Positions 2,057 through 5,529 of a stretch of 38,678 nucleotides of DNA are shown piece after piece. Both the position numbers and the translations under genes were made by a program. This stretch comes from a virus: the IMG/VR virus record IMGVR_UViG_3300035698_014932, positions 1 to 38,678 of that record; one strand, given 5' to 3'. Within the stretch, counting starts at the first letter, position 1; the number at the start of each line of letters is the position of its first letter. The notes beneath the pieces were generated by a model. It did not search any database. It had not been told where the DNA came from and was given only the letters and a program-made list of their open reading frames with translations.

Positions 2057-2218
2057 ATGAAAAATACTCTTTTAAATGAGATAAGATTCCAAATGAATAA
2101 ATATGATAGATTGATGGGTGATTGTGAAAATTGAACTATATCAAAGAGTAGATTATGTAATGCATGAAAAGAGTTAAGAATAACAATACAAGAGTTAAAC
2201 AATTATTTATTAAATTAA
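2057..2218 (+). CDS. small hypothetical protein, 53 aa
   Basis: ATG 2057 to TAA 2216-2218; 53 mostly polar residues with the pattern MGDCENGTISKSRLCNAGKE and a helical end (LRITIQELNNYLLN). No family is recognised. It is the first gene behind the 2003 promoter and lies 4 bases before the immunity gene. Confidence 0.6.
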
Positions 2219-2222
2219 AAGT

Positions 2223-2390
2223 ATGGAAATAGTAGTACTAATATTAATCATATATTTTTTACCGACAATAAATGTTTTATTTAACAAAAATAAATCAAAT
2301 AAATGATCTACGATTGTAATAAATCTATTTTTGGGATGGACTTTTGTTTGATGGGTGATTGCATTCGCTATCTCTTTTTGAAAAGATTAA
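2223..2390 (+). CDS. imm: superinfection immunity membrane protein (Imm-like)
   Basis: A 55-residue protein with two hydrophobic segments, roughly residues 3-20 and 29-52. It carries the hallmark order of the superinfection-immunity family typified by T4 Imm: YFLPTINVL at the end of the first segment, a short basic loop (NKNKSNKGS), then LFLGWTFVGWVIAFAIS. Family members sit in the inner membrane and block DNA entry from a second phage of the same kind. The glycine of VGWV is UGA. The length is typical for the family. It follows the 2057 gene by four bases and precedes the long RNA region. Confidence 0.85.
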
Positions 2391-2475
2391 TTTTTAATTA
2401 TAAAATAAAATGGATAATAATAAATAAAAAACATGCTAATCCAAAAGTAAAATTTATTTAAAGATTTGAAATATA
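2391..2475 (+). other. AT-rich spacer
   Basis: Contains only tiny frames (for example MDNNK at 2410) and no clear promoter or terminator; it joins the immunity gene to the structured RNA region. Confidence 0.5.
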
Positions 2476-3345
2476 AATGTAATATGTAAATAACAGCCTA
2501 TAACTAGTATTTATATATTTTACACATTACATTGATAGATTTAAAGATTAATATCGTGGGTTCACCAGAGAAGTTAACAGTGAACATCTAGCCTCACTAC
2601 ACGACTGAAGATTCCTTTGACTAAGGATGAAACATACCTGTTCGATCAGCTCATTACTTATTTAATAAGTATGACTAGTCATCAGGTGTGTATCGTGGAG
2701 TCTCCCAAGTGAGGGAATAACTGGAGACCTAGACTTCTCACACTATATTAGTTTTTAAATATTGCTAAGCAATCACAGAAGCTCAATGATCTTGTAGGTG
2801 GGCTGTTAAATGAATTACTTTTGAGGAATAGATTTAATATATGAGTGTAATGTATAAATGAGTCTTTAAGTAGAATAATCATTATGTAGGAGAACTTTTC
2901 AGATCTATTTGGTTTGGGTACTTTGGTGTTTAATGAGTGGTTAAATCGCTCCCAAGCCCACTGCTGAAAGAAGAGCTTAAGTGCTAGAAGTAAAACGAGG
3001 CGTCGATGATACGCCTATCCTATATCGTTATACATTACATTGATAGATTTAAATACAAGTTGGGATTAGCAGCAACTACCTTATGCTAATCATAACCGAC
3101 GCTAGGGAAACCTAGGGGGGAATATAGGTAGGCAGGGCTCTATGGTTCGACGGAAATGTACAATCCATAAACTATAAATTGAGACTGTGCTCCTCTGTAT
3201 GATAATTAATTACTTAGTTTATACTAAGGCTATTTATAAACGTGTATTGTTTTATAGATAGAGAATTGATTATATTACAGAGGGAATGCAGTAGCAAGAG
3301 ATATAGTTCTCTGGAAATATTATTTAACACACAAAACGTTTTATT
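2476..3345 (+). ncRNA. candidate large structured noncoding RNA
   Basis: About 870 bases without a convincing gene in either code, visibly richer in G+C than its surroundings. A helix 2491-2498/2801-2808 (TAACAGCC with GGCTGTTA) closes a 320-base domain. Inside it are hairpins 2560-2565/2580-2585, 2613-2617/2623-2627, 2633-2640/2683-2690 enclosing 2656-2661/2665-2670, and 2700-2705/2723-2728. Downstream are 2999-3003/3011-3015, 3064-3071/3084-3091, CTAGG-GAAA-CCTAG at 3102-3115, 3141-3145/3165-3169, 3192-3199/3276-3283 and 3297-3301/3308-3312. Size and phage location recall the ornate large RNAs GOLLD and ROOL, but I cannot assign a class. The 3' part (GAGACT at 3181, AAGAGATATAGTTC at 3296) faintly resembles group I intron P7 strands. 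Strand is inferred from the neighbouring genes. Confidence 0.6.
2846..3039 (+). ncRNA. second arm-closed RNA module
   Basis: TGTAATGTATAA (2846-2857) is the exact reverse complement of TTATACATTACA (3028-3039), giving a perfect 12-base-pair closing stem around 170 bases. The module contains the hairpin 2999-3003/3011-3015 and the motif CGCCTATCCTAT at 3012-3023, which recurs in the next module at about 3471. No gene is supported inside it. Confidence 0.55.
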
Positions 3346-3438
3346 ATGAAAAACTTATTATCAATTATTGGATTATTTCTACCCGTCATTAAAGCAGATT
3401 TACATTCAGACTATTGAATATTTGATATATGAATGTAG
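3346..3438 (+). CDS. possible 30-aa exported peptide
   Basis: ATG 3346 opens a short frame to TAG 3436-3438. The N-terminus MKNLLSIIGLFLPVIKA has the shape of a signal peptide: a lysine, a hydrophobic run and a small residue. It is followed by a short acidic-aromatic tail ending GIFDIGM. It sits between two RNA modules, and its last seven bases fall in the arm of the third module, so initiation or termination could be coupled to RNA folding. It may also be a chance frame. Confidence 0.35.
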
Positions 3439-3617
3439 TGTATAAATGGTAAGGTAATTCGATTGTTCTCGCCTATCCTATTCATTGAAGGTATACAATA
3501 TATGAATAGGGTTACAAGGAGTTAATGCCAACTGAGGTGGAAGCATTTTAAAGCAGTTAACGGCTTGAATTGTGGAACAGGATATTGTTGGAAAACATAG
3601 GCTTTATACATTACATT
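3432..3617 (+). ncRNA. third arm-closed RNA module
   Basis: AATGTAGTGTATA (3432-3444) pairs with TATACATTACATT (3605-3617) over 13 positions with one G-U pair. Inside lie the CGCCTATCCTAT motif shared with the second module and a strong hairpin in which CCTATTCAT (about 3475-3483) pairs with ATGAATAGG. No convincing gene lies between 3439 and 3639. It probably belongs to the same transcript as the large RNA. Confidence 0.5.
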
Positions 3618-3754
3618 TATGTATTTAATAAAGTTATTTATGAAAACAGTAATAAAACCATGAAGAATACCAATTAAACTTTGGTTAGATGATATAGAAG
3701 ATGGAACGTTAGAACAAGCTACTAATCTTGTCAATGGTTATTACAGAAATACAT

Positions 3755-3783
3755 TTGACAAATGTACGTCAATTTTATATAAT
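3755..3783 (+). promoter_or_regulatory. consensus promoter TTGACA-N17-TATAAT
   Basis: Perfect sigma-70-type hexamers TTGACA (3755-3760) and TATAAT (3778-3783) with a 17-base spacer. The predicted start would be about 3790, just before the HNH gene ATG at 3813, so it would drive the HNH endonuclease and probably rtcB. It lies inside the RtcB remnant and may have arrived with the endonuclease. Confidence 0.8.
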
Positions 3784-3807
3784 ACTTATGTTTATGTCAT
3801 AAGTATT
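3781..3807 (+). repeat. 10-bp inverted repeat at HNH transcript start
   Basis: AATACTTATG (3781-3790) and CATAAGTATT (3798-3807) are perfect inverted repeats around a 7-base loop. The element overlaps the -10 box and the predicted transcription start, so it could be an operator or a 5' mRNA hairpin rather than a terminator. Confidence 0.55.
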
Positions 3808-3812
3808 ATTAA

Positions 3813-4307
3813 ATGAATAATAGTAAAGTAACATTAGAAAAAAGAAAAGAGCTAAGAAAGTACTATAAAAAAACTATAGACCCAAATTCTTTTCCAGTAT
3901 ATATTAAAAAGATATGTAAGGATTGCTGAAAAGAAAAAGATTGTAAATGGAATAGTTCTTTTACAACTAAATGAGTTCCAGAATATAAAGCTAGATGTGA
4001 TAAATGTCACAATATATTCAAAAGAATAATAGCAAAATCTAGTGTATCAAAATGACTATGTAATATAAGAGTAAAGAAATATCAAAGACAAAATAAACAA
4101 TGGGCTGTAGATTATCTATGATGAAGATGTATTAAGTGTTGATATAATAAATGTTTAAGAGCATTAAATTTTCATCATAGAAATCCAGAAAAAAAACAAT
4201 ATACAATATGAGAAATATTAGACCATCATAAAAATAAATTAAAAAAAGAATTAAACAAGTGTGATTTATTATGTTCTAATTGCCATATGGAAGAACATAA
4301 TAAATAA
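3813..4307 (+). CDS. HNH endonuclease (free-standing homing type)
   Basis: A 164-residue protein with two CxxC pairs typical of zinc-stabilised HNH enzymes: KICKDCGKEKDC and KARCDKCH near the N-terminus, then GRCIKCGYNKC leading to the core LNFHHRNPEK, ending CDLLCSNCHMEEH. The HH, N and final H positions match the HNH nuclease fold (a beta-beta-alpha-metal site that nicks or cuts DNA). Its position between an rtcB remnant and an intact rtcB suggests a homing endonuclease that moved into an rtcB region. It overlaps the remnant frame by 19 bases and has a consensus promoter just upstream. Whether it is active and what site it cuts are unknown. Confidence 0.88.
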
Positions 4308-4332
4308 AGTTTTATTTACTAACTTATTTAAA

Positions 4333-5529
4333 ATGAATTTTACTTATAAAAATCCTGATTTTAAAGTTCCTATTAAGGCTTGGATTCCAAGAGAAGAATA
4401 TTTTAAGGATGAATGAATGGTAGAGCAGTGTGAAAATTTAGCTAAATTACCATTTGTTTATAAACATATAGTGTTAAATTGAGATTGACATCAAGGTTAT
4501 TGAATGCCTATATGATGAGTTATGGCAACTAAATGAGTTGTTTTACCTAATGCTGTAGGTGTTGATATTTGATGTTGAATGTGTGCTGTTAAAACAAATT
4601 TAACTGATATTGATACTGAAACACTTAAAAAGATAATGTGAAAAATTAGAGAGGCTGTACCCGTTTGATTTAATAAACATAAAGAAAAACAAGATGAAAT
4701 GTTAATGCCAACCCCTCCAGATGTAGACATAGATAATTTATTTAAGTTAATAATTGAAAAAGAATATAATAATGCAGCAAAATCAATTTGAACACTATGA
4801 TGATGAAACCATTTTATAGAAATACAAAAATGATCTGATTGATCTATATGGATAATGATTCATAGTTGAAGTAGAAATTTAGGACTTCAAGTAGCTAAAC
4901 ATTATAATAATTTAGCAAAAGAACTGAATAAAAAATGGTATAGTAATATAAATGAAAAGCATGATCTAGCATTTTTGCCATTAGATAGTGAAGAGTGAAA
5001 AAATTATATTCATGAAATGAATTATTGTGTAGAATATGCTTTAGCTAATAGAAAATTAATGATGGATAGAATTAAAGGGATATTTGAAATACAATATTCA
5101 ACTTGTATATTTGATGAAATTATAAACATAGCTCATAATTATGCAAGAATGGAAAACCATTTTTGAACTAATGTAATGATACATAGAAAAGGTGCTACAA
5201 GTTCTAAGGATTTAGAAATTTGAATAATACCATGAAGTCAATGAACTAAGTCATATATAGTAAAATGAAAAGGGAATAAAGATAGTTTCATGTCTTGTAG
5301 TCATTGAGCAGGTAGATTAATGAGTAGAAAAAAAGCAAAACTAAACTTAAATCTTGAAGAAGAAATTAAGAATCTAGATGATCAATGAATTATACACTGA
5401 ATAAGACATATAGATGATCTAGATGAAGCATCATGAGCCTATAAAGATATATCAGTTGTAATGGAAAACCAAAAAGATCTAGTAGATATACTTGTAGAAT
5501 TACAACCTATTTGAGTTATAAAATGATAA
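4333..5529 (+). CDS. rtcB: RtcB-family RNA ligase
   Basis: A complete 398-residue RtcB, the GTP- and Mn2+-dependent ligase that joins 2',3'-cyclic-phosphate or 3'-phosphate RNA ends to 5'-OH ends. Visible signatures: GDGHQGYGMPIGGV near residues 50-63, the metal motif VGVDIGCGMC with Asp78 and Cys81, GGGNHFIE with His160, HSGSRNLG with His177, IIPGSQGTKSYIV, and SHGAGR with the guanylylated His324. Most of these glycines are UGA. The N-terminus differs from the remnant at 3640. Phage RtcB is thought to repair tRNAs or mRNAs cut by host defence nucleases. The adjacent long RNA also makes it a candidate processing partner; that is inference. The HNH gene ends 25 bases upstream. Confidence 0.95.

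Follow-up and report, generated by a model that had tools for sequence, protein, structure and literature searches.

A newly recognised family of structured phage RNAs, typically with tRNA-like ends, and its member upstream of rtcB in a phage that reads TGA as glycine

What is encoded by a stretch of phage DNA that folds strongly as RNA and holds no recognizable gene? The window (the whole stretch of DNA analysed here, 38,678 nucleotides of IMG/VR record IMGVR_UViG_3300035698_014932) raises this question just upstream of rtcB, where the first-pass annotation had read positions 2476-3345 as one candidate large noncoding RNA, perhaps of a new class, recalling GOLLD and ROOL. Here, we will distinguish between the stretch as a whole, which can be described by composition and folding, and a 222-base unit within it, positions 2832-3053, which is almost certainly a conserved structured RNA of a newly recognised family. 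All window coordinates refer to the plus strand.

Several properties claimed for the stretch can be read directly from its letters. The G+C content is indeed raised (32–40% vs about 20–28% in the surroundings), and under translation table 25 the ORFs inside the stretch are all shorter than 70 aa, with no supported coding ORF among them. The segments 2491-2498 (TAACAGCC) and 2801-2808 (GGCTGTTA) are perfect complements, and the GAAA-capped stem at 3102-3115 reads CTAGG-GAAA-CCTAG. When 2464-3345 is folded as RNA, it reaches -233.5 kcal/mol; dinucleotide shuffles reach -192.7 ± 7.1 (z = -5.8), and none of the 20 does as well. The parts fold to different degrees, with z-scores of -3.7 for 2832-3053, -5.0 for 3054-3345, and a weak -1.3 for 2546-2831 folded alone. 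Because 3420-3629 also folds strongly (z -4.7), the structure extends past 3345 to about 3629.

This longer stretch is organized by two repeat arms that are absent from the earlier description: D1 at 2464, 2832, and 3420, and D2 at 2520, 3028, and 3604, the one complementary to the other. The result looks like an array of units separated by repeated 25-base stems. The upstream structured stretch (2464-2831) contains D1a (2464-2492), D2a (2520-2545), and the domain closed by 2491-2498/2801-2808. Beyond 2832-3053 lie a downstream structured stretch with the GAAA-capped stem (3054-3345) and a further unit closed by D1c (3420-3448) and D2c (3604-3629). The latter unit has CGCCTATCCTAT in common with the family core; it is not matched by model R2 (described later), and no second family copy rises above noise in the window. 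Homologue searches with 2464-2831, 3054-3345, and 3420-3629 were empty, the evidence for these units being their folding, and a pattern search found the D1/D2 spacing in no other phage. The idea of a single 870-base RNA is therefore unsupported, homologues having been found for 2832-3053 only; as judged by sequence comparison, evolutionary conservation is proven for that unit only, which the first-pass annotation had not singled out.

The family came to light through a sensitive blastn comparison of the stretch with GenBank phages, which gave weak matches (E 0.03–0.4), all but one on the same 30–40 bases, in Pseudomonas phage D6, Listeria phage B025, E. coli phages CUS-3/IME10, and one further E. 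coli phage. The aligned matches have in common GTAAAACGAGGCG...CGCCTATC. Motif pattern scans recovered 69 and at least 119 IMG/VR stretches, plus nine genome contigs, which belong to Omnitrophota, Bacillota (Enterococcus, Shouchella, Gordonibacillus, and Clostridiaceae), Bacteroidota (Dyadobacter), and Pseudomonadota (Rhodanobacter and Pandoraea). With near-duplicates removed, the parsed set came to 82 candidate loci, at least one of which (L118) resembles a chance motif match; the parses of L100, L132, L178, and L183 were later excluded or assigned to a permuted class.

The carriers are phages and prophages of E. coli, Listeria, Acinetobacter, Pseudomonas, Dyadobacter, Omnitrophota, and others, so that the family spans phages of many bacterial groups in several phyla. 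In bacterial chromosomes, only the seed genome was found among 118 and among 114 sampled genomes under stricter filters, a low frequency that is consistent with a phage RNA. In E. coli, 828 of 5,426 complete genomes match all or part of the type-strain stretch that carries the RNA. In Arthrobacter and Rhodococcus phages there were weak matches of 23 bases, which were excluded from membership, and the abundant 800-base RNA of ICP1 was rejected. Also rejected was the tRNA cluster of the P100-like Listeria phage LMSP-25 (L311), which has long gene-free gaps at 42008-42667 and 46855-47522; three unexplained abundant RNAs near an Rsr-like gene have been reported for its relative CKA15 (PMC12282133).

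Alignment of the members shows a core in the form of a three-way junction (stems A, B, and C) with near-invariant junction strands. The core is present in 71 of the 82 loci and runs in the order (T/G)AATC(A/C)G or a near variant, stem A strand, usually AGAA, a variable domain, GTAAAACGAG, stem C, TATC, and the second strand of stem A. The near-fixed junction sequences are TAATCAG, AGAA, GTAAAACGAG, and TATC, with AATC invariant in 40/40 members of alignment A1.

Covariation in relatives, which had been proposed as a check on the RNA, is present. RNAalifold, applied to a 40-member alignment, predicts stems A and C together with some of the variable domain; 10 of the 17 pairs show compensatory changes. 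A fuller structure has a covariation score of 0.469, compared with 0.194 ± 0.014 in shuffles (0/500) and at most 0.106 when the structure or its partners are slid. In 65 canonical members, 99.5% of stem A positions are paired, as opposed to 66% when the strands of the stem are swapped between members.

There is one source of bias that the reader should keep in mind: the members were gathered by motif, and the parser favoured members with stem A, while stem B and the inner helix were unselected. Some of the invariance seen in GTAAAACGAG and stem C comes from this selection, since the motif served to collect the members. The bias is answered by held-out models, which find the window and further members not used in their building. 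Model R2, a leave-one-out model made without the window, matches 2858-3056 at 44.4 bits (E 2.8e-9), and members outside model building were also found in an E. coli type strain prophage (6.8e-18), a Hafnia phage (1.1e-18), and Pseudomonas M1 (3.1e-16). A sister model, R1, gave zero matches in 739 kb of terminase-related control phage DNA. The relatives of the window's terminase are without the RNA, as are the phages whose RtcBs are closest to that of the window.

Six members (L084, L100, L129, L132, L183, and L214) are circularly permuted and open at stem B. Their order is the motif, stem A', a short hairpin, (T/G)AATC(A/C)G, stem A, and AGAAC or AGGAC, and 41 of their 42 stem A pairs are formed. 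Directly upstream of one of them lies a 133-base tRNA match with a long insertion (L132 1335-1467, minus strand). Two members (L117 and L099) have a tRNA within the variable domain.

The unit in the window carries the family signature of (T/G)AATC(A/C)G, stem A, AGAA, stem B, GTAAAACGAG, stem C, and TATC, and the minimum free energy (MFE) structure of 2832-3053 alone gives the same stems as the family, together with a closing stem. This closing stem of ~25 bp is formed by D1b (2832-2857, 5' arm) and D2b (3028-3053, 3' arm), as seen from the repeats, inverted repeat I6, and MFE pairing. Inside it, TAATCAT (2876-2882; A1 columns 19-25) is the counterpart of the (T/G)AATC(A/C)G linker that follows the D-like hairpin. 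The 5' strand of stem A, ATGTAGG (2884-2890), pairs with the 3' strand, CCTATAT (3019-3025), both covering aligned and covarying positions in A1. The AGAA junction strand (2891-2894; A1 columns 34-37), of which AGA is invariant, leads to stem B (2896-2902/2964-2970) and its variable domain, which occupy 2896-2970 in the MFE structure; stem B covaries in relatives, and the variable domain on it is the site that hosts a tRNA in some of them. The invariant strand GTAAAACGAG (2990-2999), known from the alignment and also used as search motif, ends in the G that opens stem C. Stem C (GGCGT 2999-3003, a loop, and ACGCC 3011-3015) and the following TAT complete the core at 2999-3018 (A1 columns 206-230).

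Outside the core, canonical members possess a D-like hairpin upstream and a T-like hairpin downstream, and their outer flanks pair in the manner of an acceptor stem. A T-like hairpin of at least 4 bp is found in 92% of members vs 36% in shuffles, and an acceptor-like stem of at least 6 bp in 45 of 61 members vs 10% when flanks are exchanged between members; the T-loop sequence is of tRNA type in 17/66 and in 0 of the control. Some of these caps are near to tRNA-Leu (GGCGGAATAGGTAGACGC ... GGTGCAAATCC). Because the D-like, T-like, and acceptor-like elements in most members cap stem A, the core there occupies the position of the tRNA anticodon arm. In the window, the ~25-bp stem of D1b and D2b takes the place of the acceptor, the T-like arm is absent, and the D-like hairpin is a weak one of 3 bp in the MFE structure. 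ARAGORN called no tRNA in the window, and no cloverleaf with a 7-base anticodon loop was found.

A structured noncoding RNA in a phage with TGA as glycine is thus supported, and its class is absent from Rfam. With Rfam 15, the whole window gave zero matches at the gathering score, and matches at E<=10 within 2200-3900 were at chance level only; the suggested identity with GOLLD or ROOL found no match at either threshold. Searches of relatives (18 of them for GOLLD/ROOL), permissive thresholds included, returned nothing over the RNA, and the group I and II intron models of Rfam were unmatched in the window and in relatives. The motif was not found as text in the literature searched, which left subscription journals and preprints mostly outside, so that an earlier description is possible. 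From these comparisons the RNA family appears categorically new, a description that applies to the family and not to a proven new mechanism. As it is absent from RNA libraries, such a class would have been overlooked, and the RNA is indeed unlabelled even in well-studied organisms: the copy in the E. coli type strain carries no annotation.

Where, then, do phages keep this RNA? Its sites are tRNA clusters, the beginnings of late operons, and the vicinity of rtcB. In CUS-3 and the E. coli type strain it lies between Q and holin, in Aeromonas phage 62AhydR11PP just upstream of the terminase genes, and in D6, Psa21, Meifeng, and SNUABM_29 among tRNA genes. In neighbour scans, small terminase, holin, and HNH genes lead downstream, and upstream there were single cases of antiterminator Q and of sigma-70 region 4. 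The gene rtcB is directly downstream of the RNA in L164, L182, L189, and L166 (L182 and L189 being close), and in L287 and L301 it follows after one or three tRNA genes, read by eye. RtcB is encoded in 7 of 50 carrier records vs 655 of 50,697 GenBank phages (1.3%); the other 43 carriers have no RtcB in the record, and RtcB was found in 0 of 31 terminase relatives, many of which are short fragments.

Among the phages whose RtcBs are closest to that of the window, several have tRNA genes directly beside rtcB. More generally, many phages have tRNA genes that directly abut rtcB, as seen in L234, L257, L242, L227, L317, and L332. Two tmRNA calls were also noted, one of the permuted/alpha type in an RtcB-encoding phage (L266 295-681) and one upstream of a phage rtcB (L323 2889-3234).

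In the window itself, genes are read with TGA as glycine, and RtcB, the large terminase, portal, and protease were identified. TGA occurs at invariant RtcB glycines such as those of VDIGCGM and HQGYGMPIGG. The full-length RtcB RNA ligase domain lies at 4333-5529 (PF01139, E 2.9e-109), and a fragment at 3640-3735 represents the original N-terminus of rtcB, residues 1-32 (as much as 69% identical to phage RtcBs, with a best E of 2e-11). Since the fragment at 3640 matches RtcB residues 1-32, the array ends 10 bases before the original start of rtcB. The interval 3640-4332 shows an HNH endonuclease gene (3813-4307; phrog_2255, E 3.3e-24) with the opening 32 codons of an rtcB on one side and, on the other, a full-length rtcB whose N-terminus differs, as if a homing insertion had split the gene, which was then re-started. 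A perfect sigma-70 consensus, TTGACA-17-TATAAT, stands at 3755-3783 between the rtcB fragment and the HNH gene.

What might such an RNA do? We suggest that it would be produced abundantly, frequently as late transcription begins, excised at its tRNA-like or duplex ends, and used in trans as a tRNA mimic within a phage toolkit for tRNA maintenance that includes tRNA genes and the RtcB ligase. Its likeliest job would be to occupy a host factor that handles tRNA; it might serve as a decoy for tRNA-cutting defence nucleases or as a platform for RtcB-dependent tRNA repair. This role as a tRNA mimic or in repair is tentative and, in our judgement, rather more doubtful than probable, and the combined statement that 2832-3053 is a family member and that it has this role falls a little short of an even chance. 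Evenly balanced is the broader reading of a new trans-acting class of phage RNA, with a tRNA elbow, a three-way junction for the anticodon arm, and two circular permutations, as the RNA partner of a phage tRNA-repair system (decoy, platform, or RtcB-joined circle).

Because phages of very distant hosts keep the RNA, whatever it acts on must be common to all bacteria, and the handling of tRNA or the ribosome is the most likely target. Several points count against the role suggested here. RtcB is missing from the records of most carriers, and the unit in the window has a weak D-like hairpin and no T-like arm. The invariant junction strands have no tRNA counterpart, and the core must therefore do something beyond tRNA mimicry. 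A position in late operons does not suit an early anti-defence role.

The same position invites the reading of a cis-acting leader of late operons, in which the RNA, while still being transcribed, would fold at or next to RNA polymerase in the manner of HK022 put, or would control the gene just downstream. Many phages have the RNA between a late regulator and holin, terminase small subunit, or HNH genes, and several have it directly upstream of rtcB. However, it also occurs in jumbo phages, for example Psa21 and D6, within clusters of tRNA genes, the downstream genes vary widely, and the acceptor-like pairing of the ends and the permuted forms suggest a processed, free RNA; we consider a leader unlikely.

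Permuted forms are also seen among known self-cleaving ribozymes. The RNA could by analogy cleave itself or be circularized, its 2',3'-cyclic phosphate and 5'-OH ends being joined by RtcB, which the permuted members would reflect; the fixed strands that join the three stems, the existence of two circular permutations, and the linkage to RtcB all fit. Yet no Rfam ribozyme model matches, no cleavage site is evident, and RtcB is absent from most carriers, so that this explanation is decidedly improbable.

We regard as quite improbable, too, a structural RNA of the GOLLD or ROOL kind, forming a multimer or cage as infection nears its end. The niche of phages and tRNA islands is the same, and the tRNA inside the variable domain can be compared with the linkers of GOLLD, which rises late and whose linker can contain a tRNA (PMC12286853), but Rfam gives no match and a unit of only about 110–240 bases ends in tRNA-like elements. 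A phage Y RNA that partners a Ro60/Rsr protein encoded in an operon for RNA repair would likewise be a tRNA-like domain beside rtcB, as is YrlA in rsr-yrlBA-rtcBA (PMC7790460), and acceptor-like and T-like arms do occur in most members. This reading is very improbable all the same: TROVE (PF05731) is found in 0 of 50 carriers, by which the Ro60 link is rejected, and in seven carrier loci the YrlA model RF02553 has no match to the RNA itself at E<=1, its sole matches being weak and overlapping tRNA genes. That there is no functional RNA at all, only chance folding of DNA repeats such as operators or mobile-element ends, with D1 and D2 as possible protein-binding sites, is hardly credible given the covariation and the leave-one-out match, which refute it for 2832-3053 and not for 2464-2831.

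The trans-acting, tRNA-mimicking role that we prefer is open to experiment, as copies in E. coli prophages make function testable in a standard host, and the motif and covariance model make the family findable. The link to RtcB and tRNA genes offers a concrete hypothesis for how phages might protect translation.

How does the family compare with known systems? Like tRNA (RF00005) of the tRNA-Leu type, it has an acceptor-like stem, a D-like arm (GGCGGAATAGGTAGACGC in some), and a T-like arm; unlike tRNA, it lacks an anticodon and carries a three-way junction where the anticodon arm would be, and the unit is uncalled by ARAGORN and Rfam. In tmRNA (RF00023, RF01849, and RF04321), a tRNA-like domain likewise closes a large insert, and permuted forms exist, whereas the family RNA has no tag reading frame and no tmRNA model matches over it. 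GOLLD (RF01998) and ROOL (RF03087) are also phage-borne and near tRNA islands, but match the family in neither sequence nor structure, and the family's unit of about 110–240 bases has tRNA-like ends. Phage T4 rnaC and rnaD are likewise stable phage RNAs of unknown function beside tRNAs; they were tried as members and are not matched by the family model. YrlA and the bacterial Y RNAs (RF02553) are similarly small, partly tRNA-like, and placed beside rtcB in RNA-repair operons (PMC7790460), whereas the family RNA has an invariant junction of its own, no YrlA match, and no Rsr/TROVE gene in its 50 carriers. YrlA, the tRNA-like RNA of cellular rtcBA operons, has been proposed to be a competitive inhibitor of an anticodon nuclease (PMC7790460); it is the nearest precedent for the role suggested here, and by analogy the two RNAs may work in a like manner.
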